From positions 40,714-80,665 of the forward strand of contig VCMS01000405.1 in assembly GCA_022539475.1 (NCBI GenBank): 39,952 nt of DNA, read 5' to 3'. The notes below the pieces were generated by a model. That model had not been told where the DNA came from and made no database searches. It worked only from the letters and a program-made list of their open reading frames with translations. Shown here piece after piece: positions 10,634 to 39,011 of the stretch. A program made the position numbers and the translations under genes. The stretch comes from Gracilaria domingensis (Eukaryota; Rhodophyta; Florideophyceae; Gracilariales; Gracilariaceae). Position 1 is the first letter of the stretch; every line of letters starts with the position of its first letter.

Positions 10634-12304
10634 CTATTCCCGGCTCACCGACTTGCTCGCGCTACCCTTCTCATTCATTCGGTCACCATCACCATCATCA
10701 CTTTCTTCACTCTGCTCGCTTTCCGATCCATAGCCACTTTCACTGCCACTGTTGCTCTTCTCACCTTCCGCTTTTCCCCGCAGTTCCTTTAACATTCCAG
10801 TACGCAGCGCCGCAATGTCTAATGGAAAAGACAGCCTCTTCCCAAGCATCAGTTCCATATGCGCAAATGGAATATCGCTCACCATCCACTCCTTTTCCTG
10901 CACTCCCAACCACATTCGTCGGGTCTCCGTTCCACTATCATCCTCGTAATCCTCTCCGGGTTCCTTTCGTATCATGTGCAGCACTGGATTGCTACGGTAG
11001 ATATCTGCAATGGTTTCTCGTTCACAAAGGGCGTCGTACATGTTCCTCATCATCTCCTTCCTTCCTCGTCCATTCTGATCGACCTCCATAACACTCGGTA
11101 TTGTCCCCACCAGTACGCGACGATCACGTTGATTGTGCTGCATAAACTTGTTCCATTTAACACATTTTACGATCGAATTCTCGTAACCCTTCATCAATTC
11201 TGTTCGGTTCCCGTATTCGTCAAGTTGAGCATACTCTGACATATCATCTACAGAAGCATACTTCATTTTGGCTCCGCGTTCGAGCCTCCTCGCTCGTACG
11301 ACGTACCCAAATATCTCCACATCGTTCTCCCAATGCCCTCCGAAGCGCACAACGCTAGATGCAGACAAGACAATTGAACTCCCGACCGGCATCCAGAACA
11401 CACGGGTAGAGTTCACTTCTCGTGGATGGACTGGCGGGACATACTCGTAATACTTGCCGGTCTGCCCCAGTTTCGTTCCAGTAAATCCCCGCACGGTGCG
11501 TTCCGTTACAGTTATGTAGATACCGGTAATGTCCATGCTTTCCAGATAGAACCCCCCTTTTCGGCCAGCAAGAACCGTGTAGACAACGTACAGCCCATCA
11601 TCCGTGTTCTCGCAAGCCTGCCTGCGGTTACGTCGCCATCCCCATTCCCAAGGTTCAGCGCCCTGCTTCCCAAGAACTTCTTCGGTCGAAACCAAGGCAC
11701 TTCGCGTCTTTTCAACCTTTACAGCTGCGCCACCTGCTTCAACTATACGAATATAATCTTCCATTCCACACATCGCGTTGATGCATATCTTAAATCGACA
11801 GCAGACGGTAGTGACAACCGCAAGTTCTTTTGAAGGCCGATACTCCTCGGCACTCTCGGCATGCGTCAGCAATCCTCTCTCCAAGATACGACACAGTATG
11901 TATTGTTGCGAAAGCACCCATGCTTCCAACAGGTCACAATATTCCTTCCTCTTCGAAAAGCGAACCAGAACAGCCTTCCCTTCATATCCTCTGTACCTCT
12001 CCCCAAGCTTCTCAGGGGCATGTTTCGTGTGCAAACCGGTGATAATATCACCCAGATTCTTGCTGGTTGCTAGATAGCTGTTGATACGCGAGTAATCGCT
12101 GGGAGTTAAACTGTGAACTGCCATTCCAAATCCAGTACCAATAAGTAACCCTTCATGAGCGGCTTTCCATGCTTTCGCTATCGAAGATACCTTTGCCCTG
12201 CAATCCTCCTCTGTCAGTAGCCTCGCGTCAAGCAAGATCTGTATCGGCTTCTTCACCCCGCCCGGATAGGTGTCCATTACTTCACGATGCTCTCCGATAG
12301 ACAT
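10634..12304 (-). CDS. Element gene A1, conserved protein of unknown function (556 aa)
   Basis: I recognise no domain, but the protein is clearly conserved with the copy at 28.1-30.1 kb. Shared blocks are: GFGMAVHSLTPSDYS (about residues 58-72; partner GFGTVAHNITPSEYS); GDIITGLHTKHAP (85-97); a VRFSKRK block (about 114-120); CRFKICINAMCGMEDYIRI near 170-190; GIYITVTERTVRGFTG and the following YYEYV; FGYVVRARR; GTIPSVMEV; and a WLG...EW pair before FPLDI. The last 50 or so residues are Ser/Glu/Asp-rich and look disordered. The first ATG is at 12304; an upstream TTG in frame is unlikely to be used. It is divergent from gene B across an 840-bp gap. A structural, adaptor or DNA-binding role is possible but not shown. 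Confidence 0.85.
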   Translation of the reverse strand: MSIGEHREVMDTYPGGVKKPIQILLDARLLTEEDCRAKVSSIAKAWKAAHEGLLIGTGFGMAVHSLTPSDYSRINSYLATSKNLGDIITGLHTKHAPEKLGERYRGYEGKAVLVRFSKRKEYCDLLEAWVLSQQYILCRILERGLLTHAESAEEYRPSKELAVVTTVCCRFKICINAMCGMEDYIRIVEAGGAAVKVEKTRSALVSTEEVLGKQGAEPWEWGWRRNRRQACENTDDGLYVVYTVLAGRKGGFYLESMDITGIYITVTERTVRGFTGTKLGQTGKYYEYVPPVHPREVNSTRVFWMPVGSSIVLSASSVVRFGGHWENDVEIFGYVVRARRLERGAKMKYASVDDMSEYAQLDEYGNRTELMKGYENSIVKCVKWNKFMQHNQRDRRVLVGTIPSVMEVDQNGRGRKEMMRNMYDALCERETIADIYRSNPVLHMIRKEPGEDYEDDSGTETRRMWLGVQEKEWMVSDIPFAHMELMLGKRLSFPLDIAALRTGMLKELRGKAEGEKSNSGSESGYGSESEQSEESDDGDGDRMNEKGSASKSVSRE

Positions 12305-13143
12305 GATACAGCACAACTGCGTAGCAAACGCTCGGTCTCAGTGAGAGAACAGGACGACGGCGAACGAGGCAGAGTTCAAAAGCATTGGATACAGATAGGA
12401 AATAAGAAAACCGCCGAACTTACGGCATGTGTTAAGGGCAAGCTACTATGGGCGAAACGAACGGCTTCGGTGACGGGTATTGGAGACCATCGTGCTTAAG
12501 CCCTGCCTGGCAGCGGCCGCCACGTTGCACACTATCCCATGACGCAAATTCAAGGTCTTGCATAACTGTAAATTGCTTCCAGACCCTCACGTGAGGCTCC
12601 TGCACGGTTCAAATGGGTGGTGGAGATGCGTCCGCTTGTAAGCAGTGTTTCTTGTTATATACGCCATCGCGCAGCGCCCCTGAAGGCCAGCAGTATCTCC
12701 CCTCGCCACACGGAGTACAATTATTTTCAATTTATTTTCGAAATTAACCGAGAAGCAGGACGGCGTCCGACAAAGTTGCAGGACGCCGTCCTGCGATATG
12801 ACACCGTCCGGAAGCCAAGCGCATTCGGCCACTGTTGACATTCTAGCATGGATTCACCTCCCGAGAAGTTCAAGTTCATCCCTCGCCTGTGAATTCTCAC
12901 GTTCATCAGCTCTCGTGAAATCTCGCGTGCTCAACTCTCATCTGCCAAATCCCATATTCGGTACCCCTTCAGCTTAGCTACACCACATATGCTGAAAGTC
13001 TGAGGAGAGACTCTGCCATTCTTCTGTTCGGTTTGTTTGTAGACCTCTGGAACACATTCGACATCGTTGTCACACGAGGGGCTTCATTGAACTACAGCGA
13101 CGACAATCGGGACCCTTCTGAATTATCGACACAATAAGCAGCA
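12305..13143. other. Divergent intergenic region between A1 and B1
   Basis: This 840-bp stretch should hold the promoters of both A1 and B1. It contains two 17-bp palindromic sites and a TATA-like GTATATAAC on the minus strand at 12654-12662. That site is about 350 bases before the A1 start, so its use for A1 is uncertain. No gene in it is supported; short frames on both strands lack motifs. Confidence 0.5.
12756..12795. promoter_or_regulatory. Pair of 17-bp palindromic sites between A1 and B1
   Basis: GCAGGACGCCGTCCTGC at 12779-12795 has perfect 8-bp arms around a single central base. An imperfect copy, GCAGGACGGCGTCCGAC, lies at 12756-12772, starting 23 bp earlier. Two helical turns are about 21 bp, so proteins on both sites would sit on roughly the same face. 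Related sites occur in the equivalent region of element 2. An operator or partition-like site is plausible. Confidence 0.55.
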
Positions 13144-16142
13144 ATGGCAATCCGACGGGCGAAAGCCACCTTGTCTTCGATGATCATGGAGAGAATTCAA
13201 ATTGCGCGGATAAGCAAGGTTTATTACGCTCACACAGACCTCTTTATCGGCCCGTTCATTGGTCGCCACTCTAGTCAAGCAAACTTCAAGAGAGTTTGCA
13301 TGGAGGTTGGAGAACCGCATAGGTTCCGACGACACCAGCCCCTCCTTGTAGTAACGTCGGATATCAATTTCCCCGAAGGGTTTCTCATAGTGGTTGGTGG
13401 TGGTCATCGCATTTTGGTGGCTGCTCACATAATGCACATCATGATTTTGCCATATCAGGTTCTAGATCTTTCGGGCTTATCCGAGTTTGGTCGGGACGTT
13501 TCCGTTCTCACCCACGACGCCATAATTTCTCATCATCTCGAAGCGACAGAACCGAGACCGGAACCATTCAGTCTCATGGAGCAGGTGCTCTCTTTTGCAC
13601 GTCTGGAACAGTACTGGATATGGAGAGAACAGCAGAGGCTCTTAGAGTCAGGGAAGAAACCTAGGCGAAACCCGGCGATGACCCAGACGAAACTGATGGC
13701 GGCTTACGATGAGCTAAAAGAGGATACAGCTGAAAGCAGTAAATATGCCATTGACTTCATGTCCCCACCCAACAAATCTACGAGACAGGGCTATATTTCA
13801 GGAGCGCAAAGAATGCTGAAAGCCGGGGTGGTACCGTATCTGTGTGAGCTAGAATCTGCCGGCCTTGCTTCTTTTCCTCGCCGTACGCTCAATGTCGTGA
13901 AACATGGCCCGTAGAGAAGATTAAGGCTAGAGTGGATCTGTGGATTTCACGTCGTAGTTCCGGTTTGGATTGCGACTATAGATTCAACGATGGCACAGGG
14001 AGTGAAGTTGATGGACGAAGCAGGGGACGCAAGCGAAGAAGTACCGGACAGCAAGGTAGCTCAGAACTCAAAACTCCGCCACAAGGTTGGGAGAACTACT
14101 TGAACTGGACAGAGCCTGGCTCCATGTCCCTGCTGGATATGCTGCAAGCTAAACTTGACAGTGAGGAGAAAGAGATTGACAAAAAACCAGTCCAGGAGGT
14201 AAACGAGCTGGTTGACATCAAGCGTAAGCAGAAGATCATTCGAGCTGTTCGAAAGCGAGCGGAAGCCCATGTCACCAATGGCGGTGACTCAGATTCCTTT
14301 GATTTGATTGGAATGATAGAAAGAGGTATTAAACAGGAGGAGAAAGACAGATCGGACAATGATGTTCTTTTGGTCGAAGGCGGAGTGCATGATGAAAAGT
14401 TTACGTTACCTAAGAAAGACTATGATGCCATCACCGCGTTTTCGGTGCCCACCGATATCTCCGTACTGTTCACTTTGATGTACCTTAACCAGTGGAACCC
14501 AAACTCAGTGAAGGTCATGTATGTGCTGGAGTCTCTCTTGTTGACGGGATGGTTCGAAACAAAATTGAAAGAAGGCACTGAGCCCTTGCTCTCCCTCCGT
14601 CGAAAAGTGAAATCCATGAGCGGCAAAACCTATTTGGCTCATCATCGAGCCTGGCAGGCGGATCTCACGGTCTTACCTATTGTTGGATCATTTCACTGGA
14701 CTGTGGCAGTTTTGGTTAACTTTCCTAGGCTGCTGGATACCTTTGAGCACTCTACGCGCAAGGGCGAAGATAACATCGTGCCTTCTGAGGCCTCCAATGC
14801 TTGTATATTCTGGTTTGATAGCTTGAAGAATCCATCACCACACCATGGTCTTGAGGACAACCTTTTTCATTACCTTGTCGCTGCGTACCCAGGAAAGCGG
14901 AAGGTATCCTTGCGGGAATTACGAGCCAATGTTTCGCTTCATAGCCTGAAGGAAAGACTCCAAAGCGGCCTCGAATGTGGGTTCTGTGTGACTTACCATG
15001 TGGCTATCATATCGAAAAGGTATAACTTGTTTATGGAGGGTGATCCTCAGGCAATTTCGCAATATGTTAAGGAGGTATATGGATTGTATCCGCTTCGCGA
15101 CTACAAGCGTGAAGTTCTGTCCCGTCTTCAGTTTCTAGTGAACGCTTACCAATCAAACCGTGAAAAATACGTTCAATCTCCGCCTCTATTCTGGAACAAG
15201 AAGTATACCAATCCGTGCGCGTCACAGGTCCCACCACGTCGCACAAAAAGCCAAGCCTCCACGGAAGGCAAGGCTGGAGCACCTGCAAAAGATAAGCAAG
15301 ATTCCTCGAATAATTCTACTGATCCCAACCGACCAATGACGCGTAATGGCCAAACTCCGCCGGCCTCTTCGATTGCGAAGAATGATTCCGACGATACGGA
15401 TGATACAGACTTTATGCAAAATCCCACCAAGCGGCAAAAGGTGGGCCATCCTAGCGGAGAAGGATCTTCCCGAGTGAAACCGCAAGACCAAGCACCTGCT
15501 ACAGCCTCAACTGCACAACCATCCCAAGTTACCACTAGTCAACCTGCCCAACCACTTCAAGACCCCAAAGGTCGTACGCCAAGCTTGAAGGATGTCGAGA
15601 GTACGCCAAGTGCGGCTCAAAGGCCGGTATACTCCTCACCGGGGATATCCGAACAACGAACATTGCTACGGAATGCACTGGTAGGTGTGCTTCATGGACT
15701 TGTTGGTATGAATGATTCCACTTCACCACCCATTGATGTGCACGCCCTTACCTCTTCTGTTCTGAACCATTCCTCAATCACGGATGCAATGAAAAGCCTC
15801 CCTCCTAATGCCGGTATTGAAAATGCAATGGAGAAGATGACTCCGCTGGTGATCTCAAAGTTTAGATCCATCATAGAACCAGCTGCCTTCCCAACCTCGC
15901 AGCCTGTGAAAACTCAAGCCCGTCCTCAGCCGCCCATATCCATGGTGGAGCTATCGAATGAACAGATCGCTGCTTCAGTATCCCCAGCAAGCCGTCCGAC
16001 TTCAGCGGCTGTGGCATTGGTGGAAGAAGGGGTTTCCCTCGCACAGAGTGAAAAGGATACTAGTATTAAGGACGAATGGGAACAATGTTTAGGCAGGATG
16101 CAGAATATCATCAGAAAAATGAAGGCAAGGATTCATTCGTAA
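13144..16142 (+). pseudogene. Element gene B1: ParB-like region plus Ulp1-like protease, one frameshift
   Basis: Two frames (13144-13914 and 13932-16142) together match the single 1018-residue protein at 31356-34412. The break is a one-base shift near 13900, beside an AAA run; it may be a mutation or a sequence error. The N-terminal region (about residues 30-110) has the ParB/sulfiredoxin pattern: QPLLVV, then VVGGGHRILVAA at about 84-94, then LPYQVLDL. A basic cluster (RSRGRKRRS) follows the break. The protease core carries an Ulp1-type Cys-His-Asp set: His in FHWTVAV (codon 14694), Asp in WFDS (14817), Gln and Cys in LQSGLECGF (Cys codon 14976). A long Pro/Ser/Gln-rich linker precedes a conserved C-terminal domain ending in a helical segment. 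Ulp1-family enzymes cut SUMO or related proteins; the substrate here is unknown. Confidence 0.82.
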
Positions 16143-17144
16143 ACTGAAGCCCTGTTCCGGTACTTTTATTTCTTTTCGGCACCAACGATAGAGTTGAAGT
16201 GTAATCAGGTGTACTTCTAAACTGAACTGTAAATGTTCGACTGTGTACAGATCACGTTCTCGATACCGGATGAACTCTAATGCCACTACGCAAACATTTG
16301 GCTATGTGTAAAAGGAAAGGCCTGCTTTCTATTTACCTTCCTGACCGTTGTTTTGGAATAAGACCCGTTCGACCGCTAAAGAGAAGGCAGCCTCTCTGTC
16401 CTCCGAACCGACGAAAATTAGGAAATAGCCCAAGAACGTCACCATGCGCGCATCAACGCGCACACCTTCAATGTTCCCTAGTCGTACTATTCCACCTATT
16501 GCTATCATCGCGAGGGAAACGGCTTGCTACACTCCTTCAGTCATCGAAATGCTTGGAAATTGATCATTTTGGGAGAAGGCTGGGCGAGGCTCCGAACTTT
16601 GCCGCTTTCCCTGTCTCTTCACCACATTTTTACTGGTGGGCCCACAAACCGCACGACTTCCGTCGCCAGTTACCGCGCTGAATTGAAACGGTTTCTTCTA
16701 TTTTGTCACTGCGGATTTCTCCGCTCCAGCGCGCATCCTGTCTCGTCGACTGCTCCACTCTGCCCAGGGCCTCGCCCCTTTTTTGCCAATCCTACTGCTC
16801 TTGACCCTCGAAGCTGCACCTCGCGAGGAAGACGTCGTGATATTGGGCATACGCCATCTCCCAGAGTTCCTTCTGGAAAAGATCCTATCTATCAGCAAAC
16901 GATGACCATCTACCGTCATTTAGCAAAGCATGTCGTTCGCATCGTGGAGTTCGAACAGTTCAATTGCGCAGCGTAGCGGACTCACAACGTTCATTTAGAT
17001 ATCCAAATAGACACACCACCCATCCAACCGACAGAAAACGAGATTTCGTTACCATGCTACTATCCTTCGCACTGAATTCCTCAATTTACTGAAATGATTT
17101 CACTGAAATCTTTCTACAACAGTCCCGTACAAAATGAGAGCGAG
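16143..17144. other. Convergent gap between B1 and C1
   Basis: About 1 kb between the 3' ends of B1 and C1. Overlapping plus-strand frames of 133 and 150 codons occur (16280 and 16524), but they start at non-optimal sites, lack motifs and have no counterpart in element 2. No repeat or terminator structure stood out. Confidence 0.45.
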
Positions 17145-19841
17145 CTAATTTCGGCTGCGACGGCGACGGCCGCGTCGAATTGGCTCAATTTCATCCTCGT
17201 TTTCGCATCCATCACCTTTGTTCCCCTCCCTCCCCATTTCTTCTTCTTCCTCCTCTTTCTCTAATATGGCTAAGCCAAAGTAACCCTCATCTACCCCGGA
17301 GTCATCTTCGACATCGCTGCTATTCCCGTCGCTACCTAAGGGACTTCCTGGGCAGCTGTCGTTCATAAAACGCTCTTCAATATCCTCTTCTCCATCTGTT
17401 TCCTCTCCTAGGATGCTACAGAAATGTTTGGTGAGCAGGGCCGTGATTTCCTGGAAGTCTTCGCTGTAACAAGACATATACGTCGTGCGCAACTGTTCCA
17501 CGGATGTATTCATCTGTTTGGCCATAAGGTTAAGGAACTTATCCTCGTCCATGTTCTTGCCATTCTTCTCAAATTTCCCGTTACGATAGTCATGTAGCAT
17601 GACGGTAGCGAAGCTAGTACGCAGAGTCATAGCTGTTACGGAAGTCAAGGAACGGTCCACGCCAAACATGAACGTCTTAATCGAACGACTGATGTGCGAG
17701 GTGGTCATATAGAGTCCGGTTCGAGAATGAAGTAGCAATGGTCTGTGGCGCTTGAACTCCTTCATAACCGGCATTTTCCGGCTCCTGAGAACAATTGGCC
17801 GAACAACTTCGACATGAAATGCAACATAGGGCAGAACAAATCTCGGAAAATTCACGTTCGGAACGTCTAAAGCCCTCGCAGTTTTCTCTCGGAATGTCCT
17901 CATCTCAAAAACCCCCCTTGCCTTCCCCATGTCAATCGACCAACAAGATTTCAACAACTCCCTCTTTGGGCACTGGAGTCTTGCATACGCTTGCGGCCTT
18001 TGGCCCCCTCCCGTAAGCGCAATCAACCCCAGAAAGTTGAGACACCACTTCTCGAGTAGACCCTTCGTACTGGTTAGCTGCTCCACGGCAACCTTCTTAC
18101 TCTCTCGTCCGACTGTCACATTGAATTCGTCAATGATGTCGCCAAGCTTAGCACGGGCAGTTCGTATTCCAAGCTCGAGATGCTTCTTGGTGACGATTGT
18201 CTGATTCAAAATTCGATCGTCAGCGCTTTGGTTCGCCCGATACTGCTCCCGTGCCCTGCTCTTCGCAGCATTAAATGTGTTGTTCAACATCATCTCTACT
18301 CGTCGCACCTTATTTTTATCTTCACCCTCCATCATTTTAAGTGTTGCGTACTTGCACAATGTTCGTAGAGCATTGCACTTTCCTGCAACAGTCGAGAATG
18401 AGGCGGTTTTGATAAAGTAGTTGACAAAGATGCGCACAAGCGACTCATTGGCCATCAATTGGTAGAGCGCCATAGGTTTCCACCCATCCCTTCGATCCAT
18501 GGCACCAGACGAAATGGCCCAGCGCATGAACTGTCCAATAATGGATCGGAAGACGTCAAAACTCGCATTCTCGGCCTTCCCCATCAGAAGCTCTTTCGTC
18601 CTGTATCGAACCATATACAGATCATTCAAGTCAATGCAGTTCTCCACAATTACCTTCAAGCCAGGGTACACAACCTTCCCTTTCGCGGCGCGGCAATTCT
18701 TCTCCTGCAACAAGGCATTTGAACTGGCAAAGTAGTCTGGGCAGCGACAGAGTTGGTCACGGATCATTGAATGCCATAGCTCTTTTGGAGTTTTGTTCTT
18801 CAACTCCTCCTTTCGCTGCTGCAGCCGATGGAACCGTCGCTCTTCGGCACTGAGTCTTCCTGACTTCTTCGCCACCCCTCTCGTACTTCTCCTGCGTCCG
18901 AGGGTTGCACGGAACCTTCCGGAGTTCATATCCTCTAGGCGCTCGAACAAAGCGTTACGCCTGGCGGATAGATCCTCCTCTTGTTCCTTCAGCATGGCGT
19001 CTAAATCGATTACACGCACCATCGACGCCTCTTCTCCTTCATCGTCAGCAACGTTGCCACCGCCAACATCCTCGGAAGCAACGACCCTTTCTTCCTCAAC
19101 GCCATCGAAGCTTAGCTTCCTAACAGCCATCGCGCAAGACGCTTGACGGGCGTTGTTCCCTAGATCGGATGTGTCAACAAAGTGATCAAGCAGGTTGCCA
19201 CTACGGTCATCATCATGCTCCACTCCGTCCAGAAAACGATGCTCAACATCATCCTCATGTGCACGATTGCCAACTCGGCTGGGCTCGCTTGCGGTTTCCC
19301 TCCTCCCCATCTGCGGAGGTATATCCATGCCCAGAAAAACACGGCTCTTGCTGGGACAAGGAACGCTCTTCGCATCCAGACTACATTCGGAGACCTTCAA
19401 CTTCTTTCTTTCCGGGGATGAGGTGGACAATGAATCATCTCCGGAGTGCGCGGCTTTGGCCCTTGCAAGATCTCCCCGCGCCGAGTCTGAAGTAACTCTC
19501 TCCGACCTCGGACAGTCTGTCTTAGCTCTCTTCTTTAAAGCTTCTCTTTCGATGACACGGTCTTCAAGCTCGTAAACATCAACCGTCGAAGAGTGAATAG
19601 ACTCACCAAGGAGCTCCCCGTCGGGGCCCATGTCCCCACCTCGGCCTTGGTTCCCCTTCTTTGCGTGCACACGGACCTTCGTACGCTCCGTGCGGTTCTG
19701 TACCGGACCTTCAATGACGGTCTTCATTGCTTTCCCTTTCGGGACAGAAGACTTCTCGGATGGCTTGAATATGGTTTTGGACAAAGGTGGGGGCGCTGAA
19801 TACACCTCGTCCATCAAGAAGTTGATAATATGGTCGCTCAT
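17145..19841 (-). CDS. Element gene C1: tyrosine recombinase (898 aa)
   Basis: Likely the integrase that cuts and rejoins DNA through a tyrosine. Residues 1 to about 330 are charged and low-complexity. A helical region follows (about 340-600), fitting the SAM-like DNA-binding half of such enzymes. The catalytic half has Arg615 in ALTGGGQRPQAYARLQ (box I), a candidate Lys in MRTFREKTAR, Arg741 in TAMTLRTSFATVML (box II), and nucleophile Tyr788 in MNTSVEQLRTTYM. The box II His is Met, and the His before the tyrosine is Asn (MNTS in place of GHSS). The same changes are in the second copy. Arg741 to Tyr788 is 47 residues, against about 32 in XerD and Cre, because of an Asp/Lys/Asn-rich insertion. 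The tail is acidic, then basic (RRGRRRRSRN). ATG at 19841 is chosen; an in-frame TTG lies two codons upstream. A TATA box lies about 145 bp upstream. Confidence 0.85.
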   Translation of the reverse strand: MSDHIINFLMDEVYSAPPPLSKTIFKPSEKSSVPKGKAMKTVIEGPVQNRTERTKVRVHAKKGNQGRGGDMGPDGELLGESIHSSTVDVYELEDRVIEREALKKRAKTDCPRSERVTSDSARGDLARAKAAHSGDDSLSTSSPERKKLKVSECSLDAKSVPCPSKSRVFLGMDIPPQMGRRETASEPSRVGNRAHEDDVEHRFLDGVEHDDDRSGNLLDHFVDTSDLGNNARQASCAMAVRKLSFDGVEEERVVASEDVGGGNVADDEGEEASMVRVIDLDAMLKEQEEDLSARRNALFERLEDMNSGRFRATLGRRRSTRGVAKKSGRLSAEERRFHRLQQRKEELKNKTPKELWHSMIRDQLCRCPDYFASSNALLQEKNCRAAKGKVVYPGLKVIVENCIDLNDLYMVRYRTKELLMGKAENASFDVFRSIIGQFMRWAISSGAMDRRDGWKPMALYQLMANESLVRIFVNYFIKTASFSTVAGKCNALRTLCKYATLKMMEGEDKNKVRRVEMMLNNTFNAAKSRAREQYRANQSADDRILNQTIVTKKHLELGIRTARAKLGDIIDEFNVTVGRESKKVAVEQLTSTKGLLEKWCLNFLGLIALTGGGQRPQAYARLQCPKRELLKSCWSIDMGKARGVFEMRTFREKTARALDVPNVNFPRFVLPYVAFHVEVVRPIVLRSRKMPVMKEFKRHRPLLLHSRTGLYMTTSHISRSIKTFMFGVDRSLTSVTAMTLRTSFATVMLHDYRNGKFEKNGKNMDEDKFLNLMAKQMNTSVEQLRTTYMSCYSEDFQEITALLTKHFCSILGEETDGEEDIEERFMNDSCPGSPLGSDGNSSDVEDDSGVDEGYFGLAILEKEEEEEEMGREGNKGDGCENEDEIEPIRRGRRRRSRN

Positions 19842-19982
19842 CTTCAAAGTACTGGTGGTAGATCTTTCTTTTCAGCTACGAGGACTGGAACGAGTCCCGA
19901 GAACAAATGAGAAGCGGATGCGGAGATTCTGAGAAAGCTCTCCGATGCGGTACTTCCACTTTTTGAAACCATTCCCGAGACT

Positions 19983-19992
19983 GTATATATAC
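19983..19992 (-). promoter_or_regulatory. TATA box of C1
   Basis: GTATATATAC lies about 145 bp upstream of the C1 start on the minus strand. This suits a TATA-driven promoter with a leader of about 110 bases. It lies just inside the border with the satellite that begins near 20.02 kb. Confidence 0.5.
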
Positions 19993-20019
19993 TCCTTCCA
20001 GAGTACCAGGCATTGGAAA

Positions 20020-22400: not shown

Positions 22401-22514
22401 ACATTCCACACTGTTTCAGTCCATCCTTCCGCGGGGACATGATGACGTCTGGTACTTCCTTCCATTTCATTTTTAACATTGATAACAATCCATTCCCGTG
22501 ATCAGTCTCCCCTC

Positions 22515-24460: not shown

Positions 24461-24599
24461 TTTTGGTCCTTACCTGAACTCGAACCAACTTGTGCATATA
24501 CGCAAAACGATTGTCTTTATAATCTGGAGAGGTAAACTATGAAACCTTTGGATCCGTTAAAAGGCTGAAGAGCCTTATAAAACCTCCGATCCAGCAAAC

Positions 24600-28115: not shown

Positions 28116-30069
28116 CTACTTCGACGTCTTCGATTTATTCCCAAGCTCAGGCTTACTCTCCCCTTTCACTTCACCCTCCTTCTCACTATCCTCGTCGTCT
28201 TCACCTATAATTTTCTCATTAGCGGCGGCCTCCATGTCTGCTTTGTGCACACTACCATCATCTGTTACAGGGCCCCTGGGCGCGCCTTCTTCGCGTTTAC
28301 TTTCATGCACATCACCAACAATTCTATTTTCTCCCTTCTTTCTTCCTCCTTTTCAGACGGATGATCCTTACAAGATCCGTCGTGGGAATCTTCGTTATTT
28401 TTGCATGCCATCTCAGTTCCTTTTTCTTCACCTTTCTGTCCAGCGCTTTCATTTTCTGACTCAGATACAGCAGATTCTGATTCAGCGGCTTCGTCCCTTT
28501 CACTGCCATCACTTCCTTCAGCTTCCTCTATTATAGTCATTGCAATCTGCTGTTGCACGGCCTCCTGTATATCCGTCAGGTCGAAGGGGAATATCAACTT
28601 CATTTGCAGACTACTTTCGATATATTTGTAAGGAACGCCATCAAACATCCATTCATCTCCGTCCCCAAGCCACAGCCGTCGCTCATACGCGTCCCTGTCA
28701 TCTCGGTACCTCACGTTCTCGTCGTACTTCACTAACTTACTCACAGGATTGGCCTTGTAAATTTCACTTATATTCATGCCAGATGGTACCGCTTTGTGCA
28801 CTGTTTCGATCAGTCTTTTCCGGAACGACGTTGTCATTTCAACATCGAGTACACTTGGTATAGTGCCCACCACGCCTTCTCTTCCCTTAGGATAGGCCCT
28901 TCCGAATGAGTTCCAGTCTACAGTTTCCAGTCCGCGCACATCATGTAGATTCTCAACAAGCTCCATTGGGGCTCCGTACTCCTCCAGGTCATCGTACAAC
29001 TCGAGATCTTCTCTTTTCATGTAGCTCATTCGTTTCCCGTCAGTTCTCCGAGCTCGCAGCAAGTAACCAAAGACTTGGACAGCATGCTCTTCATGAGCGC
29101 CAAACCTTACAGCAAAAGTGCTTGGTACTACAATGCTACTACCAATCGTCATGAACAGCGTCCTACACTCTCTCGGTTCCATTGCATTCAGGGGACCGAC
29201 ATACTCGTAGTACAGTCCGCGTTCTCCCTTTCCTCCAGTGCTGCCTCGAACCACCTCCTCAGTGATTGTGACATAGATTCCAACTTTATCCATATTATTT
29301 GAGACAAAACCGCCACTTGCAGTAGGTAACAAAGTGTACACGATAAATGAACCGCATACTTTTCGTTCGCATGACTCTCGCACGTTCCGTGACCATTCGC
29401 TCTTCCAAACTGGCAGTCCACGCAGGGGGAAGCTTTGCTTCTTCGCAAGCAGAAGACCCGTTCCGTTCCAACATCAACTGAGAATAAGTCCTGGTCTAGA
29501 ACGCGAACGTAATCTACCATTCCACTGAGGGGCGGAATGCGTATCTTAAACCGGCATACAGCACTTGTCATCACGAGCGGATGTTTCGATAGTTCTACCT
29601 TAGCCCATTGCTCTCCATGAACATCTTCAACAATTCCTCTTTCCAGAACACAGCTTAGCAAGAATTGATGCGCAACAACTAAAGATTCCAGAGTTTCATT
29701 TTCATCCTTCCTCTTCCCCAATCGTACAAGGTACGGTTCCGTCCTCGGGCCCCTGTACGCCACATCCATCTCCACAGGAACATGTCGTGCACGCAAACCA
29801 GTCCGCACGTCCCCGTGTTTCTCCTCCATTTCCAAATCTGCGTAGACGGCAGAATACTCACTTGGCGTTATGTTGTGAGCAACCGTTCCAAATCCGAATT
29901 CGTACATTAACATGTTGAACGCGGCTTTCCATCCCACACACAACGTACTTGCCGTGTCGAATCCAGCAAACTCTTCTGCTACGTTTCGATCAACGAGAAC
30001 TTGCAGTGGTTTCTGCGGTGTACCACAAAAGCTCCGCAATCTACTCTTCGAGGATTTCTTCTCCTCCAT
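28116..30069 (-). pseudogene. Element gene A2, homologue of A1, two frameshifts
   Basis: The reading begins at ATG 30069 and matches A1 in order. It has PLQVLVD near the start, GFGTVAHNITPSEYS, GDVRTGLRARHVP, YLVRLGKRK and CRFKIRIPPLSGMVDYVRV. A one-base shift near 29460 then moves it to another frame, which carries the GIYVTITEEVVRG, YYEYVGPL, FGYLLRARR, GTIPSVLDV and FPFDL blocks. A second one-base shift in an A/G-rich run near 28330 leads to a tail ending at 28116, rich in Glu, Lys, Asp and Ser. The uncorrected frame stops at 28265 instead. A1's tail is also acidic and Ser-rich. Function unknown. Sequence error is possible at either shift. Confidence 0.75.
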
Positions 30070-30450
30070 TGGAACACGTTTCCACAGTCACACCACTTCT
30101 CACTGCTCACGACCGAAGCGTCGATGCACCTGGAGCCTACAGGACGAGATAACAAGTATCTAGCAACGCCAACTTGCTGATAATGAACGCCGATGGTGAC
30201 AACGGCAAACGCGGAGCGAAGCTGACGTTGAGCACTGCCCACTGAACCGTACGAGCTTCACCGAAATATTCATGCAGCCTTACCCCAGTTTTTGGACATA
30301 ATCTTTGCTACATAGTGGCCCATGAGCCGTCGACGGAGTTCGCCAGCACACCTCCATGTTGCCCGTGACCCACGTTATATAGACTAGAAGCACACGTGTT
30401 CTCTGTGTACTGCGAATGCACCTTACAATGTCAGTCATCTTCATCGGTTT

Positions 30451-30525
30451 GCAGGAATCTTTCCTGCATTCTGAGCTTCGCTTACACTGTCATCAGCTTC
30501 ATCGGTTTGCAGGAATCTTTCCTGC
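30451..30525. promoter_or_regulatory. Two 17-bp palindromes in a 58-bp repeat
   Basis: GCAGGAATCTTTCCTGC, with 7-bp arms and 3-base centre, occurs at 30451-30467 and 30509-30525, each followed by ATTCTGAGC. The third, partial repeat unit near 30559 has lost the palindrome. The position between A2 and B2 matches the palindromes between A1 and B1 at 12.76-12.80 kb. Confidence 0.55.
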
Positions 30526-30966
30526 ATTCTGAGCCGCGCTTACACTGTCATCAGCTTCATCGGTTTTCAGCAGCCGGTTGGCAGCAATGCTTGCGTTTGT
30601 TCGCAATCACGTCACGAGTGCGATTTGTTCCTGTGGCCGGACCACAGTTTTTTGTACGTAACAGTTTGAAAAAAACGCCCCAGCAGCATTTAAGGGAGTT
30701 GCCCAGCTCGGCCGTGCGCTGCCCGAGAATCGCTTTATATACAGCGTAAGACAGACAACACGTGTCTTTTTGTACAGGAGTACACGTTTATCGCATGTAC
30801 ACATTTGTCGCTGTTCTACGTGTATCAGCTGTGATTTTGGCTATACATTGAGAGTCGCGTTCTCTCCCGTCGCTCCGTCGCCATCTCCGTTAAGGGGCTC
30901 ACCCTCGTTTTTTACACTGAAAAAATTGAAATAAATGCCCTCATCATATCAAAGCACCGCACGATT

Positions 30967-30983
30967 GCAGGAGACATTCCTGC
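30967..30983. promoter_or_regulatory. 17-bp palindrome upstream of B2
   Basis: GCAGGAGACATTCCTGC has 6-bp arms around five central bases. It lies about 370 bp upstream of the B2 start and belongs to the same family as the sites at 30451-30525. Confidence 0.5.
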
Positions 30984-31355
30984 ACTTCTGTTTACCAAAC
31001 CAAACCATGGACAAGTGCTGCACTGTAAGGATGATCGCATGACGTGTTGCAATGTTGGCACATAAAGCCAGCACCGCTGAAATATGGCTGTATGTGAGGT
31101 ATACTTCCCTCCGTTTCGTTTTTTTGAAAAAGTTTTTTGGGAAATGCCGCTGCTTTTTACACACATTTTCAACCGTCGTCGCTTACCTCTCGATCTCCCA
31201 TGCGCTCTTCATGCCGCTCGCAGGTGCGCGTGCCGTATCCTCACACAAATCCTATCCTACCTCACGCTTCTTTATTGCGCAACAACCTCATCCCTAGCCC
31301 TCTCCGCGTACCACGAGTTCAACACAACATTGAAGAATACCGATGCTTACGCGTC

Positions 31356-34300
31356 ATGCCGCATCAGAGATTTTCGAAGAAGGTCTATGACCGCATTATC
31401 GAAGCGCGATGTAGCCCTATCTATTTGGCCAGTATTGACCTTTTCGTCGGCCCTATTATCGGCCGCTATTCGTCCATGGCTTATCTTCAACTTCTTTCAC
31501 AAGAAATGGGAGCACCCGCAAGCTATCAAATGAGCCAGCCTCTTCTCGTGATCAGAGGAGTACAGAAGACGATGTACGGGAAATTGATGGTCGTTAGCGG
31601 AGGGCACGGACTGCTTTTGGCCTCACTCGTCAAGCACTTACATTTCCTACCCTACCAGGTAATCGATGTACGAGACCTGGAAGAGTTCGGCAACAATCTA
31701 CATATGGCAATCCATGAGCCAATTTTGGCTTACCATGTGGAGACTACGAACCCTCGCCCGGCACCGTATGATATCATGCAACAGGTGGGATTGTTCGGCC
31801 GGCTCAAGGAGTACTGGGTGTGGCAAGAGCAGCAGCGTATTCTCGAGTCGGGGAAGAAGATGAAGATGTCTGCCATGACGCAGAACAAGTTGCTTGCCAC
31901 GTATGCAGACCTCAGAGAAGACGCGGAAGGTCGGCATAAATTTGCCATCGGTTTTATTGAAGACAGCCCGGCAGACCCGACGAAAAAGGGGTACATGACC
32001 GGAGCAGAACGGTTGTTGAAAGCTGATGTGTTAGAGGACCTGTGCTATCTGGAGGCAACCGGCCCAACGAGGTTCAACAAGAGTTCGTTGAACACCGTGC
32101 GCAACTGGTCAGTGCAAAAAATCAAGAACACAGTAGCACTATGGGTTGCACGAAGAAAGAGTGGCTTCCCATTCACGTGCGTGTTTTCGGACACAGCTGG
32201 CAATGAGACAGATGGAAAGAAGCGGGGACGAAAGAGGAGGCGAAGCGAGAATGAATCACCACGACTCAAGGATCCCCCTCCAGGATGGGAAGATTATCTG
32301 AATTGGGAACAGATCGGGACGATGACGCTCGTAGACCAACTGGAGGGTAAGGTCAAAGAGGAAGTGGATCGAATCAAGAAGGAAGCCGTAAAGAACAGTG
32401 GACCGGGAACAATTGCATTGGATGTCGGCGAAGACAAGCTGGAAGTGCTTTCGCTCGTGCGAGAAGAGCTCAAAGAGAAGAGCAAGCGTGGTAAGGCCCC
32501 CAAATTATTTGATCTTGCGGATCTAGTGACACGAGCGGTGGTCAAACTGGACACTAGCAAGTACTCGGACGTCGCTACGATTCTGAACGGCAGCGTGTTA
32601 CAAAAGACCTTTACCTTATGGAATGAAGACTCGAGTCGTATCGAGAAACTTTCAATGGCTACTGACGAGGCAGTTGTTTTTACGTTGTACTTCCTCAACA
32701 ATTGGTCCACACAGACTATGAATGACATATATATCTTGGATTCTGCGTACTTATCTGGATGGTTTGAGAAACCGTACCATACCTTGGCGAAGAGTAATAA
32801 AGAGCAACTGCGAGACAAGGTCGGAAGATATAAAAGAAACACTGTCAACCCTCATGACGCTGTGTGGGAAACTCAGATCACCATGCTCCCCATTTGTGGA
32901 AACAATCACTGGTCATTAGCAGTTGTATGTTCCCTTCCAACCCTGTTCAACGAGCTAGAAAACCAAAGTTCTTCTCCAATTCGCAACGTTTCCTCACAAG
33001 ATAATGCGAATGCTACAAAAGCGAGGCTCTATTGGCTGGACAGCATGGGTCCGAAGCAATCTCTGCATCAGAGTATGGCGCAGAACCTTATCGAATTCCT
33101 CTGCGCTTGCTACCCTGGAAAGCGAGAGCTAACGGCTCAGGCTCTCAAAGAGCGTTTGTCTTTTGACACGATTCGCAAACCGTTGCAGACAAATGTTGAA
33201 TGCGGCTTCTATGTCACCTATCACGCCTCTCTGGTGTGCCGTGACACAGCTCCATTTCTTTCGTTTTCCCCAAATGCCGCTCAACGCTATCTCGAAGGCT
33301 GCTACGGAGACTACACATTCCGCAAGTACACAAATGATATCCACAAAAGACTTCGCGCCTTCAAGACCATGTACCGGGCTAACCCGACCGATGCCGCTCC
33401 AGCACGAACGTTTCACTGGCCCATACCACCAGTGCCAAAGCGCTCTACTACGTCATCATCAAACGCGCACGATTCTTCTCGCCTTGCAATTGAAGGACCG
33501 TCTGTATCTGCACAGAAAACGAACCGTGAAAGTACCGAGACGACTCCAAACGTGCCAGCGGCTCCTTATGGCCAGAATGAGAAGAGTGAACCTGCGAACA
33601 AGTGTACCAACCTCGGTGCTTTTCGGTCTGATGAGAAAAAGAATTGTGATCCTGCCGAAGCCCCGCCATCCGTGCCAGCTTTTACACCACCGTCCTCACA
33701 ACCTTCCCGGTGCGACATACCATTTGTTGGGAATGACAACGATGATTTCATGCCGCACCCATCTCATAAGAAGCTTAAACGGGATCTGCAGATCACACAA
33801 CTTCCAAACGCACCCTCGCAAATGGATTTTTCACAAACCGTAATACCGGTGAACACCTTGAAACCGCCAATGCAAATCGTTCCACCAATTTCGTCACAGA
33901 ACAAGATCTCATTGCCACTTCGTGCAGTACCGGACCCTTCCTTGCCGGTGCGCAAGGCCCTCATTGGTGTTCTCAATGGACTATTGTCGCTGGATATGGG
34001 AGCTTCCCCCTCACCTGCTAAGAGTGATGTCATTCGAGCTGTGTTGGATACGAGTGAAATTAACAAAGCTATCCGCGAATCTAGAGACCCCGCAAATATG
34101 GAATCCTATCTCACCTTGCTCACCCCAATGGCCGTCAAAAGGTATCGTGAACTTCAGATTGTAGCCTTCAACACAACGAAGCCCACATTGTCCACTGCGG
34201 TTCCGGGCCCTGTGGCGGGCCCTTCTTTGGTACGTCAACGCGGTTCACCGACAGCAGTTGTGCCCACTTCTGTTGCCATGCCGGATATAGTGGTGGAAGG

Positions 34301-34412
34301 TATCTCTCTCGCCAAACAACACAAGGATAAGCATCTTCGGGAAGAGTGGGAACGTTGCATGGCGCGAGCGAGAGATCTGTTGTCCATGATGAAGTGCCAG
34401 AAACAAGGGTAA
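31356..34412 (+). CDS. Element gene B2: ParB-like region fused to Ulp1-like protease (1018 aa)
   Basis: Intact. The frame is open from about 31137, but ATG 31356 is chosen because the protein then starts level with B1. Residues about 27-105 show a ParB/sulfiredoxin-like pattern: DLFVGPIIGRYSS, QPLLVIRG (61-68), VVSGGHGLLLAS (79-90), LPYQVIDV (98-105). B1 keeps the more canonical GGHR here; B2 has GGHG. A helical region follows, then a basic nuclear localisation-type cluster (KKRGRKRRR, near 287). The protease core has His518 in NNHWSLAV, Asp562 in YWLDS, Gln611 and Cys616 in LQTNVECGFYV, the order and spacing logic of the Ulp1/SENP (C48) family. The His-Asp gap of 44 is longer than usual. Residues about 690-860 are low-complexity; the last 140 are conserved with B1. 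It could process an element or host protein, or cut SUMO-like tags. Confidence 0.85.
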   Translation: MPHQRFSKKVYDRIIEARCSPIYLASIDLFVGPIIGRYSSMAYLQLLSQEMGAPASYQMSQPLLVIRGVQKTMYGKLMVVSGGHGLLLASLVKHLHFLPYQVIDVRDLEEFGNNLHMAIHEPILAYHVETTNPRPAPYDIMQQVGLFGRLKEYWVWQEQQRILESGKKMKMSAMTQNKLLATYADLREDAEGRHKFAIGFIEDSPADPTKKGYMTGAERLLKADVLEDLCYLEATGPTRFNKSSLNTVRNWSVQKIKNTVALWVARRKSGFPFTCVFSDTAGNETDGKKRGRKRRRSENESPRLKDPPPGWEDYLNWEQIGTMTLVDQLEGKVKEEVDRIKKEAVKNSGPGTIALDVGEDKLEVLSLVREELKEKSKRGKAPKLFDLADLVTRAVVKLDTSKYSDVATILNGSVLQKTFTLWNEDSSRIEKLSMATDEAVVFTLYFLNNWSTQTMNDIYILDSAYLSGWFEKPYHTLAKSNKEQLRDKVGRYKRNTVNPHDAVWETQITMLPICGNNHWSLAVVCSLPTLFNELENQSSSPIRNVSSQDNANATKARLYWLDSMGPKQSLHQSMAQNLIEFLCACYPGKRELTAQALKERLSFDTIRKPLQTNVECGFYVTYHASLVCRDTAPFLSFSPNAAQRYLEGCYGDYTFRKYTNDIHKRLRAFKTMYRANPTDAAPARTFHWPIPPVPKRSTTSSSNAHDSSRLAIEGPSVSAQKTNRESTETTPNVPAAPYGQNEKSEPANKCTNLGAFRSDEKKNCDPAEAPPSVPAFTPPSSQPSRCDIPFVGNDNDDFMPHPSHKKLKRDLQITQLPNAPSQMDFSQTVIPVNTLKPPMQIVPPISSQNKISLPLRAVPDPSLPVRKALIGVLNGLLSLDMGASPSPAKSDVIRAVLDTSEINKAIRESRDPANMESYLTLLTPMAVKRYRELQIVAFNTTKPTLSTAVPGPVAGPSLVRQRGSPTAVVPTSVAMPDIVVEGISLAKQHKDKHLREEWERCMARARDLLSMMKCQKQG

Positions 34413-35084
34413 ACATAGCACAGAAGATTAGGGAGATGGTGCGGAGCAGACCAACATAATGCTGTCTATGATTTGCTAACACCAAGCATATTACCCCTTC
34501 TCCTAAACAGTTGCATACGACTTGGCTCACCAGGTTTGCTGTAGAACGCATATATTATTCAACGGAAGTGAATTACGGAATAGCGATGGTTCTTTCGAGA
34601 ACGCCGATCGTTATGGAGAAGCGCAGCTACTTGGCATACTTCACATTCTGGACAACATAGTGGGAAGGATCAGACAGAAGAACCTGATCATTGTACAGCC
34701 ACAGCTCGTCTCTAAATCCCAAAATTGAATTCAACAAAAGCAAAAAAAGTTTGTTCTACCTCATTGCCTCGAGCTCTACTTGTGCTACCTAAACGAACTT
34801 GTTTTGGTCAACTTTGATATTAATGGGAGTTTTTGAAAGCATCAAAAGATGGTCTCGATCCCTTTCACTATTTCAATCGAGGATCAGGGAGGGGTGACGC
34901 CATGGCACAAGTGAGTCTATGTATCATACAATATGATATTTTGTCGGACAGGACCACAACCAATATTGTAGTTATTGCTACGGGTCCATGCACCAGATCT
35001 GGATATTGCTCTAGAAAGGTGAGAGCAATAAGCTGAAAATTATATTCGCAAAAGTGGTAGGTTTTCATACTCGACTACGAGAAC
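34413..35084. other. Spacer after B2
   Basis: No gene supported; only short motif-free frames. No repeat recognised. Confidence 0.4.
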
Positions 35085-35558
35085 ATGACCGTTTCATGTC
35101 CTTGTCGCTCTCAGTATCGAACTTGTACCGAATCCATTGGACATAAGTCCTTTCCTACAAGCAGCTTGTTACACAGCACCGAGCCAAGCGATATTGCGGA
35201 CCTCGCCTCAATGCTTGGCCTCGTTTCGATCGGGCAAGCATTCGCCTCGATCCACTATCGCTCGACACGGTCTTGCACAATAACCTATACGTACGAGAAC
35301 GGGTTTCGCTGTCAGGGGGAAGCGTTCCACTACATTGAACCAGCTGCGTCGAAGGAAAACAACGAAGGTCTGCTCGATATTATGAACCTCTACTTCACCA
35401 TCTGCCTACCAGCCACAAACACTTGCATATTGGTTAGCTATATGCTTAGCCAACGCAGTTTGCCAGTGTTCTTGGGGTTTCGCTGTCAGGTACACTACGA
35501 GGAGGAGTTACTCTACTTTGAACCACCTCCGCCGAAGGAAAAAACGAAGGTCTGCTAG
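35085..35558 (+). pseudogene. Coding-like fragment between B2 and C2
   Basis: An ATG-started frame at 35085 runs 157 codons into a tandem repeat. The text before the repeat (PSDIADLASMLGLVSIGQAF) has protein character. The third repeat unit (about 35670-35825) reads cleanly in one frame as about 50 residues containing HYEEELLYFEPPPPKENNEG and then LARYYEPILHQLPTDHKHLH. Unit 1 has lost ten bases and unit 2 one base, and both are out of frame. This looks like an unknown coding segment that was amplified and decayed. It has no counterpart between B1 and C1, so it may be cargo or a foreign insertion. Confidence 0.4.
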
Positions 35559-35870
35559 GACTGGCTCGATATTATGAACCAATCCTTCACCAACTGCCTA
35601 CAGACCACAAATACTTGCATATCGGTTAGCTATATCGCTTAGCCAACGCAGTTCGCCAGTGTTCTTGGGGTTTTCGCTGTCAGGTACACTACGAGGAGGA
35701 GTTACTCTACTTTGAACCACCTCCGCCGAAGGAAAACAACGAAGGTCTGCTAGGACTGGCTCGATATTATGAACCAATCCTTCACCAACTGCCTACAGAC
35801 CACAAACACTTGCATATCGGTTAGCTATATCGCTTAGCCAGCGCAGTTCGCCAGTGTTCTTGGAACTGCT
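35300..35870. repeat. ~175-193-bp tandem repeat, three units plus a remnant
   Basis: Units begin at GGGTTTCGCTGTCAGG (35301), GGGTTTCGCTGTCAGGTACA (about 35476) and GGGTTTTCGCTGTCAGGTAC (about 35668). A fragment (GTTCTTGGAACTGCTCGG) follows near 35857. Units 2 and 3 are almost identical apart from one-base indels; unit 1 is older and lacks AGGACTGGCT. Confidence 0.9.
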
Positions 35871-36112
35871 CGGCTTTCTCACCGGGTTTACTCTCTTTGA
35901 AAGACGATTGCACTCAACTTTATCTTATAACTCGGCAGCTGACAAAGACAATTGATCATTCTTTTCTGAATTGGCATGGCTCGGGATTTACTTTTCTCAC
36001 CTAACATGAACGCGACCACTGTATGATTCTGCGGCCGGAATCTTCATTGTTCACCACAATATTTTCTCTCTCACACGATTTCTTTCTCCTTCGTCTCCAC
36101 CCTCGATTCATT
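35871..36112. other. Spacer before C2 with possible C2 tail
   Basis: In another minus frame this region encodes a basic run (NRGWRRRRKKS near 36080), which resembles the basic tail of C1 (RRGRRRRSRN). The true C2 end may therefore lie here beyond a further frameshift, not at 36113. Confidence 0.4.
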
Positions 36113-38832
36113 TCAATCCTCATCCTGAGATTCCTCTTCGTCCTCAAATAAGCCCACACCGGTTCCGATTTCATCCTCCACGTCCTCATCACTGCTTTCG
36201 TCCTCGACACTATCTTTCTCCGTTCCGTGTTGGCTATCACTCAGTTCATCGTCGCTTTCACTAGCCCCGTCGTCTTCGTCACCCGAGTCCTCGCCCATAA
36301 TCATGCAAAAGTGCTTCGTCATAATGGCAGTAACCTCCTTAAAGTCACTGCTACGAGAGGCCATGTACGTACCGCGTAGCTGCTCAACTGAAGTGTTCAT
36401 CTGCTTGGCCACCAAGCCTAAAAACTTATCTTCGTTCATCTCCTGCCCATCCTTCGTAAACTTCCCACGCCGATAATCATGTAGCATTGCTGTGGCGAAA
36501 CTGGTTCGCAGAGTCATGGCCGTAACGGAGGTGAGCGAAGAGTGTACACTCGTCATAAACGTTTTGATGGTTCGGGAAATATGCGACGATTTCAACAATA
36601 CACCAGTTCGGGAATGCAACAACAACGGTCTGTTTCTCTTAAACGAAGTGGTCAAAGGCAGCTTCCTCCTCCTTAGTATCATCGGACGAACGAGATCAAC
36701 ATGGAAAGCAACGTAGGGCATTATCAACCTCGGAAAATTGATGTTCGGAACGTCCGAGCGCCCGCGCGGTCTTTTCCCGGAACGTCTTCATCTCGAACAG
36801 TCCTTTCGGGTTTCTCATTTCTTCGTCGATACATTCATCGAGCGTAAAATCGCTCGGGCATTGCAGCCTCGCGTAAGCCTGGGGCCTTTGCCCCCACCCG
36901 TGAGCGCGATGAGGGCTAGGAAGTTTATGCACCATTTGTCAAGCAAACCTTTGGTTTGCATCATTTCCTTCACCGCGGCCCGTCGTGACAGTTTGCATGC
37001 CGTTGCGGAAAACGATTCGATCATGCCATTCAGCTGCGATCGGGCTACATTCACGCCCTTCTCAATCTGCTTCCGCGACACCGATAGTTTGGTTCTTGAT
37101 ACGTTCTTCGGCACTCTGCAGCTTCCGAGTGCTCTCCCTCGCTCCTCCCTTCGCTGCGTTGAAAGCAGTTCCGAGGTACATCTCAACACGGGCAATCTGG
37201 TACGATCTTCCATGTCCGCCATGCGCACGGATGCGTACTGGCACATGATTCTCAACACATTGCACTTGCTTGCAATCGTGTTAAACGAGGCGATTCGAAT
37301 GAAGTAGTTCACAAAACACCTAACAAGGTGTTCCTCCTTCAGCAAGCAAACAGTGCGAGAGCGCTTCCAATCCATCAGAGACAAGGAAGCTTGGCCCTTG
37401 GCACGATCGCCCACGCTGACGAACTGACCAACATATCGACCTGAACCATCGTGAGAAGACTCCCAGCACCCCTGGTGTGAAGAAGCATCCTCGTCTTAAA
37501 TCGCATAGCATGTACACTTTTCCAGGTCTGGGCAGTTTGGCAGACGGAAATATGTTCAAGCCGGGGTTAGGCCAAGGTCGCTGTGCATGTCCTAACGGAT
37601 GTCCAAAGTGCTCGGCAGCATAGCGATTCTTGCTACGGTAAATATGCAGGGCTTCTCCCAGAGTTTGCTTGCAACCATGCTCTTCAAGAGGTGTTGAAGA
37701 GAGCTGGTGTCCAACATCGTCGAAGTCTCATTCACGTTCTCCTTTCCTGCTTCTTCCTCGCCCTGTCCTAGTCGAGAGTTCCGCGTCCTTTTCTCTTTGT
37801 CGTGTGGCAATAAACATGGATATTCAGACACGGAGCACCAATCCTGTCGCCTCTTGCCCCGAATATCTCCGCTCGAGCCAACACGCATCGCGTCATGTCA
37901 TCGCACCTATTTCCGATTTCTTTAGCGTCCCTCATGAACTTTTTCCAAGTTAAATAGGATGACAAGTCTTCCGACCATCGACTTCTTGGCGATCGGCCGG
38001 TATTCCTTCATTTGATGGCAAGGTAGGATGTGGAACTACAGGTTATGCAGCGTATGCCGACGACTGGCGTCTTATAGGGTTTTGGGCTTGTCGTCTCCGA
38101 TCAAGTCACATAATGCTGCTACGTTTTGATTGACGCAGGCAGGGACGCCGGTCCTGCGTTGTAAAGAGCTCGCATGTCTGCAGCTTCCGTTCGCTTCTCT
38201 TCGTGTACCGCGCATAACATCAGCAAGTCTTCGTCACAAGACCAGCGAAGTCAGGCCCAAGCGAGAGGCTATCATTGCGAGAAGACCATTCTTCGTCTCT
38301 GCCGCTTCCGGTGCCGATAGGACTGTTCTATGCTCCAGCCATTCTGCGTTAACACGCAAATCGTTATCCTCTGCTTCAAACTATTCCATACGTGGTGGAA
38401 TAGATATTCCAAAGTCCGTAGGGCTCGTTTGCATTCGTCCTTTTTCGCGTCTGGCGCATGAAACGATTCCTTTCCGGCAAGACGTCTTCAGATTCATCAG
38501 CTCCTTTGCTTTTTTGGAGTCTTCAATGCGTCGCCCGATAATGTTCCGTTATCGACACTTCTTCTTCGCGACGAATGAACTTCACCTGAAGTCGCCTCTT
38601 GGGCGGAAACTCGCCTTGGTCACTGGGAACACAACCTTCTGAACTGCACCCTTCGTGGACGTCATTCTACCTTCAAGTTCCTTGTTCAGGGTCTCTTCGC
38701 CGGCGCCTAGTACCTTGGCGTGCACAGGCTTCTTATTACAACTTGCCCCTTCACAAGTACGGCTGACTTTTGCCACTTGCTCGAACTCGCAGTCGGACTA
38801 CGGTGGGGACACGCGCCACTATCGCTCATCAT
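36113..38832 (-). pseudogene. Element gene C2: tyrosine recombinase, several frameshifts
   Basis: Homologous to C1 over its whole length. The start MMSD at 38832 matches MKMSD of C1. FGISIPPRME near 38.4 kb matches FLGMDIPPQM. CFVNYFIRIASFNTIASKCN matches the C1 helical region. The catalytic blocks ALTGGG (then GQRPQAYARLQ), EMKTFREKTARAL, LLLHSRTG, TAMTLRTSFATAML and MNTSVEQLRGTYM are all present. The frame switches near 37205, 37090, 36893 and 36763, again near 37.5 kb, and probably further upstream. The box II Arg and the Tyr survive, with the same Met and Asn replacements as C1. The tail is strongly acidic. The number of shifts argues for real decay over simple read error. Confidence 0.75.
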
Positions 38833-39003
38833 TGCCAAAGCATGCACTGGAGAAATGAAATCGCTCAATGATGGATACTAAGAAATCACAGTAGTATTCA
38901 GCTGTACACTCTAACAACGAAGTCAGGGTTTCCAGTAGGAAAAAGAGACTTGTTGTTCGTTGCCTCTGACGACTCCGCCATTTCTGGACCACTCTACGCT
39001 CCT

Positions 39004-39011
39004 CTTTATAA
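39004..39011 (-). promoter_or_regulatory. TATA box of C2
   Basis: TTATAAAG on the minus strand lies about 170 bp upstream of the C2 start, a similar distance to the TATA box before C1 (about 145 bp). Confidence 0.45.

Follow-up and report, generated by a model that had tools for sequence, protein, structure and literature searches.

The DIRS and Ngaro retrotransposons are eukaryotic mobile elements with a tyrosine recombinase. Cryptons form a further such group, described in passages of PMC3212892 as having terminal direct repeats of 4-6 bp and no terminal inverted repeats; according to the same passages, CryptonF-2_PS and some CryptonS of oomycetes encode a C48/Ulp1 peptidase together with the recombinase. 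By mechanism, Cryptons are the closest system to the elements presented here, which come from the red alga Gracilaria domingensis. The window, that is, the whole stretch of 39,952 nucleotides analysed (C405:40714-80665, in contig VCMS01000405.1), belongs to a genome assembly of 77.9 Mb in 680 contigs that also served as the basis of our survey. Its two loci of interest are parts of two abutting elements (Table 1), each with three genes designated A, B and C. These elements probably represent a family of DNA transposons of about 16-21 kb moved by Crypton-like site-specific recombination through a tyrosine recombinase; descent from Cryptons, or kinship with them, is unproven. The family is real, multi-copy and built on a three-gene core, and it has apparently been mobile recently. 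It is also apparently undescribed: among the papers listed in full-text searches of open-access literature (subscription papers and Repbase being outside the scope), no title or abstract opening dealt with tyrosine recombinase DNA transposons of red algae.

At both window loci the same three protein families are arranged A(-)B(+)C(-), just as the original prediction, made from these letters without database searches, had described them. Its companion claim, conserved proteins amid unrelated intergenic DNA, agrees with what alignment gives: the DNA of the two elements aligns only within C, in two blastn matches (E<=1e-3), one of 604 bp (68%) and one of 84 bp (71%). The span assigned to the unit, 10634..39011, is too small; it does enclose the trio at both loci, but the units themselves are elements 1 and 2 with the limits given in Table 1, the second running off the contig end. 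For element 1, the right limit is an abrupt stop common to several copies, and the left limit is taken as the point where a neighboring element, X, ends. All three genes look constrained at the sequence level. The dN/dS of C is 0.20 between two copies in one contig (C333a and C333b), and in five other pairs (two of A, two of B, one of C) synonymous sites are saturated, with pS of 0.78-0.82 and pN of 0.27-0.46. Some window genes are broken: B of locus 1 consists of two frames (258 and 764 aa), and locus 2 has a split A and a split C. Unsplit counterparts of the split genes are found in the second C405 copy (a B frame of 1001 aa at C405:21725-24727), in C211 and in C333, the latter two contigs each holding an 891-aa counterpart of the element 2 C. 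Since the locus 2 C shows few mismatches but many gaps relative to its C333 counterpart (51 mismatches, 159 gap openings), some of the frame splits may be sequencing indels.

The trio goes beyond chance because the set recurs at many other places. Genome counts were tabulated by hand, with 50 of 129 recombinase candidates scored and with divergent A or B genes liable to be missed, so they are lower bounds. Gene A is present at at least 17 places, 12 of them substantial (three in C405, two in C333, and one each in C2, C454, C100, C211, C66, C301 and C12) and five fragmentary or weak (C310, C275, C329, C337 and C12:555158). B adjoins A divergently at 12/12 substantial loci and at one of the five fragments (C275), and 10 of the 12, all but C66 and C301, have C beyond B. 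Adjacency limited to the two window loci, which the original prediction had named as refuting it, is thus not what the genome shows. Two sets of findings weigh against a fixed trio. Two recent copies, in C100 (35.8-41.6 kb) and C251, carry B and C with no A detected and are 99.79% identical to each other over the 5154 bp compared. In addition, at least 28 further recombinase loci are divergent (23-52% identity), which suggests other element families. Twenty of these are on contigs with no match to A or B, and the other eight are in C100 (3), C405, C251, C2, C275 and C184. Only the C184 locus among the eight adjoins B, in the form of a weak B beside C; at the C275 recombinase a B-like match lies 6.5 kb off in an orientation that does not fit, and around the lone recombinase at C405:9614-11380 the A and B profiles find nothing within the surrounding 12.7 kb. 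B-like matches with no A are also found at C275:26149, in C13 and in C420.

Copies with 97-99.7% DNA identity adjoin unlike DNA, and near-identical copies are present on separate contigs. Element 2 has copies at 97-98% in C211 and C333, and the inverted element pair on C405 is 99.69% identical over 20.4 kb. The element at C2:597726-619395 has a C region with 95% DNA identity to element 1 and an A with only 61% protein identity; from these sequences it looks like a mosaic, suggesting exchange between elements. For the C12 copy, decay by base changes was considered and rejected, its differences being mostly indels.

Fifteen right-end junctions, placed by eye, share the form TATAG-N8/9-CCCC followed by differing sequence; C100 and C333b have one C fewer, C106 has one C more, and C455 has one substitution. 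In a first subfamily (the inverted C405 pair, C2, C100, C12 and C382) the end stops at CTATAGTATAGGCCCAAGAACCC(C), each copy then continuing into unlike DNA, and in a second (C211, C333a and C333b) it reads TTATAGACGCTACAACCC(C); further right ends come from C106, C425 (two), element X in C405, C455 and C192. A regular expression for the right end, run on 158 kb of non-N sequence, picked out five distinct places (three in C405, one in C211 and that of C333a), all of which are element ends, and missed C333b. A test of the flanks omitted four junctions, those of X in C405 and C455, of C106 and of C333b, which continue into CCCCTAA-type sequence. In the remaining 11, which are not fully independent since the two C425 junctions lie at one locus, the flank starts with TA in eight, compared with 21 of 775 for CCCC in general (p 4e-11) and with a plain TA frequency of 4.9% (p 5e-9); over all junctions the count is 10/15. 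At C425:17950-18130, a short solo fragment from the right end of a different element comes directly after an element end and gives way to other DNA; the fragment could be a nested insertion or an excision footprint.

The left end of element 1, at window position 4042, reads TAAATCCCCTAAATCCCCTAATCCCC... and follows element X without a gap. It consists of an array of CCCCTAA(A)T, a unit equal to that of the apparent target. To the left of the C2 element, CCCCTAA-type units extend for 0.9 kb or more, after an N run, and arrays of this type are also present in C9 and C382. For one insertion the unoccupied sequence has been kept: CCTCAATCCCCTTGCATGG is unbroken in C333 (C333:58780-58901), and its counterpart in C405 is AAGAACCCC-TTGCATGG, with element 1 inserted within element 2. 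Comparison of occupied and empty sites was the route to the ends proposed at the outset; the 15 right junctions and this one unoccupied sequence, with the close copies beside unlike DNA, bear out the idea of a mobile three-gene unit. In both C405 and C454 element 1 has X at its left array, the same order recurs in a 77-79% copy in C251, and C333a and C333b are in tandem. The position of X at left arrays, together with nesting and tandem copies, indicates that insertions land in the arrays or at least accumulate there.

Several single places concern these arrays and the nested site. Element 1 has inserted into a low-complexity open frame at window 25096-25731 (-), near the left part of element 2; by eye, this frame continues in C333. 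C587:16420-16700 and C299:97500-97740 each contain a short internal CCCCTAA-type array with shared flanks, and no element end was read beside it. At C382:71911-73218 (-), beside an N run, a right end lies just about 1.3 kb from a CCCCTAA array of left type; the pair may be a small non-autonomous derivative.

The arrays invite a bolder, tentative reading, in which CCCCTAA(A)T would be the Gracilaria telomere repeat and the elements telomere-repeat-bearing tyrosine recombinase transposons, each with a telomere-repeat block on the left as a built-in docking site, self-targeting into chains; we consider this rather doubtful. Passages of PMC7046594 describe the telomere sequences of red algae as for the most part missing or fragmentary. 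A search of the assembly for three consecutive canonical telomere repeats (CCCTAA or CCCTAAA) gave no match. The CCCCTAA array pattern gave 88 forward and 131 reverse matches, and among the matches listed all are in C2 and C9, away from contig ends; a reversed-pattern control (88 and 129 matches) is uninformative because the CCCCTAA repeat matches it too. With no canonical repeat and with the placed arrays internal to contigs, telomere identity can be entertained only as a possibility. If it is true, chromosome ends would carry TTAGGGGA units, the elements could seed new internal or terminal telomere arrays, and a telomere-repeat transposon with its own SUMO protease would represent a way of life new to recombinase elements of eukaryotes. 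In Gracilaria assemblies, a CCCCTAA array may be the sign of an element and not of a chromosome end.

If segmental duplication near repeats had spread a host multigene cluster, in place of a recombinase of its own, this could account for the inverted and tandem copies on one contig and for the N runs beside them, some of which arrangements scaffolding could create. Against this, the right ends stop at one motif while the DNA beyond differs, one unoccupied sequence is preserved, and the near-identical copies are on separate contigs, so we regard duplication of this kind as improbable and return to movement by the elements' own enzyme.

That enzyme would be C. Its predicted fold (Cre, XerH) and its conserved R, K, R and Y residues identify it as a tyrosine recombinase, as originally proposed. 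The recombinase protein search was made with a trimmed four-sequence alignment. Sequence profiles respond little: a PDB sequence-profile search with the recombinase found nothing (best E 0.63), Pfam gave no tyrosine recombinase match for the window C protein, and Phage_integrase matched one of 16 recombinases scanned. DUF3504, which is Crypton-linked, had no match among the 16, and GCR1_C reached E 0.054 in one of them, N-terminal to the recombinase domain. DUF3435 (PF11917) also matched 0/16, a weak test because Phage_integrase itself matched only one.

B is an Ulp1/SENP-type protease judging by profile match and invariant putative catalytic residues. The C48 catalytic domain was matched in two of three B proteins (best E 5.7e-5), the SENP7 profile gave E 0.0021, and H518 W519, D559, Q607 and C612 are invariant in 3/3 aligned sequences; we take these His-Trp, Asp, Gln and Cys residues to form the Ulp1/SENP protease site. 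Of the ParB-like/Ulp1 fusion in the original prediction, the protease part is supported and the ParB-like part is not. The N-terminal half of B is conserved and matches nothing, and profile searches with Pfam, PHROGs, NCBIfam, PADLOC and PDB gave no ParB family; its sole trait pointing to ParB is a GGH(R) motif, an unconfirmed resemblance. Gene A is, by sequence, without an annotated relative. It had no significant match in the profile libraries searched, and a protein search returned at least five matches: the window copy, three more from the same genome and one from elsewhere at 30%. Its structure model, from six sequences, has a mean pLDDT of 35.6 and is unusable for fold.

Drawn from the element ends alone, with left ends read against X or arrays, the likely mechanism is conservative site-specific recombination at a CCCC(T/TA) core. 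C, which we infer to mobilize the element, would excise it as a circle whose joint (AACCCC + TAAATCCCC) reads CCCCTA, as does the usual target. The circle would then insert by one crossover at a CCCC(TA) target, leaving the 4-5 bp core as the only repeat. The left array would serve as a self-carried target: since it consists of target units, every inserted copy would itself offer a landing site, which would explain the element chains. With such an array a transposon could, quite simply, carry a place to land along with it. Family membership hints that B might take SUMO off proteins of recombination or of host chromatin; A might conceivably be a DNA-binding or complex-forming partner. Since enzyme, right end, apparent target and recent copies are visible together, excision and insertion are directly testable.

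The ends may be of Crypton type, with a CCC(C) core in the 15 right junctions and a left end beginning TAAATCCCC, although no copy has both host junctions; by eye, left and right ends are not inverse complements. Like the C48-bearing Cryptons, the element combines a tyrosine recombinase with an Ulp1/C48-type protease, and the recurrence of this pairing in oomycetes suggests a shared need. The original prediction had set Cryptons apart as carrying a recombinase only, a distinction that CryptonF-2_PS and some CryptonS, with both proteins, do not allow (passages of PMC3212892). Unlike Cryptons, the element has an extra conserved gene A, 16-21 kb of mostly non-coding repeats, a red algal host, and an apparent CCCCTA target with a left array of the target unit, and its recombinases gave no DUF3504 match and only the single marginal GCR1_C match above.

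No Pfam match to reverse transcriptase was found in 31 of the 46 window frames of at least 120 aa (15 frames and the shorter ones were unscanned), which separates the element from DIRS and Ngaro. An endogenous DNA virus or a derivative of one, entering telomere repeats in the manner of nimaviruses and with A as a structural or replication protein, has a precedent: passages of PMC10871703 tie a tyrosine recombinase of endogenous nimaviruses to telomere-repeat insertion, and the element resembles Majanivirus and relatives, as described there, in linking a tyrosine recombinase to insertion in a short C-rich repeat motif. A is also large, conserved and without annotated relatives, and its model is too poor to judge the matter. 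Nonetheless, the scanned frames gave no capsid, polymerase, helicase or packaging match, A, B and C find nothing in viral_contigs (a pattern-based search), and neither source yielded nimavirus-like core genes. The three genes make up only about 7.4 of the 21 kb; nimaviruses, by those passages, are large viral genomes in (TAACC)n arrays, whereas here there are three genes and most right flanks are not arrays. We therefore find a viral origin unlikely and favor the Crypton-like transposon. The least credible alternative, and a very improbable one, is a giant cargo element of Starship type, its captain recombinase at one end. C is indeed the gene nearest one end of element 1 (about 5.2 kb away) and reads inward, as first noted, and Starships too have direct repeats and start at 15 kb (passages of PMC12134995), so that the sizes here overlap their lower range. 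Against this, DUF3435 has no match in the weak test above, no cargo is recognized (nothing besides A, B and C recurs, and the remaining scanned frames have no significant match) and the host is a red alga rather than a member of the fungal Pezizomycotina; kinship with Starships is not supported.

Table 1. Features of the window, in window positions
Feature	Position	Strand	Remarks
Element X, right-hand part	1..4041	.	abuts element 1; end reads ATATAGGTAATAATCCCC
Element 1	4042..25124	+	21.1 kb, left end to right end
Left-end array of element 1	4042..4123	+	TAATCCCC / TAAATCCCC units
183-aa open frame, element 1	7505..8056	+	identical in inverted copy; possible fourth gene
Gene A, element 1	10634..12337	-	567-aa open frame, first ATG near 12304, acidic tail
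Gene B, element 1	13138..16142	+	Ulp1-type protease; split: 13138-13914 + 13848-16142
Gene C, element 1	17145..19871	-	tyrosine recombinase (predicted fold), 908-aa open frame; modelled domain 17400-18791
Right-end motif, element 1	25102..25124	+	TATAGTATAGGCCCAAGAACCCC
Element 2	25125..39952	+	left part interrupted by element 1; right end past contig end
Gene A, element 2	28265..30087	-	split into two frames
Gene B, element 2	31128..34412	+	1094-aa open frame, Peptidase_C48 match
Gene C, element 2	36116..38884	-	several frames; extent by blastn of C333 counterpart

The 183-aa frame of element 1 had no match in a Pfam search. Element X has copies in C454, C455, C192 and C382 (97-99%) and in C251 (79%); in C455 and C192 the match ends at the common end motif and is followed by unlike DNA. 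Tandem repeats abound in the non-coding parts of the window, with periods of 9, 28, 80-81, 103-122, 195, about 300 and 426, at positions 297-422, 919-3764, 8185-8346, 9588-9982, 20637-21476, 22518-22842, 24623-24935 and 35372-35863.
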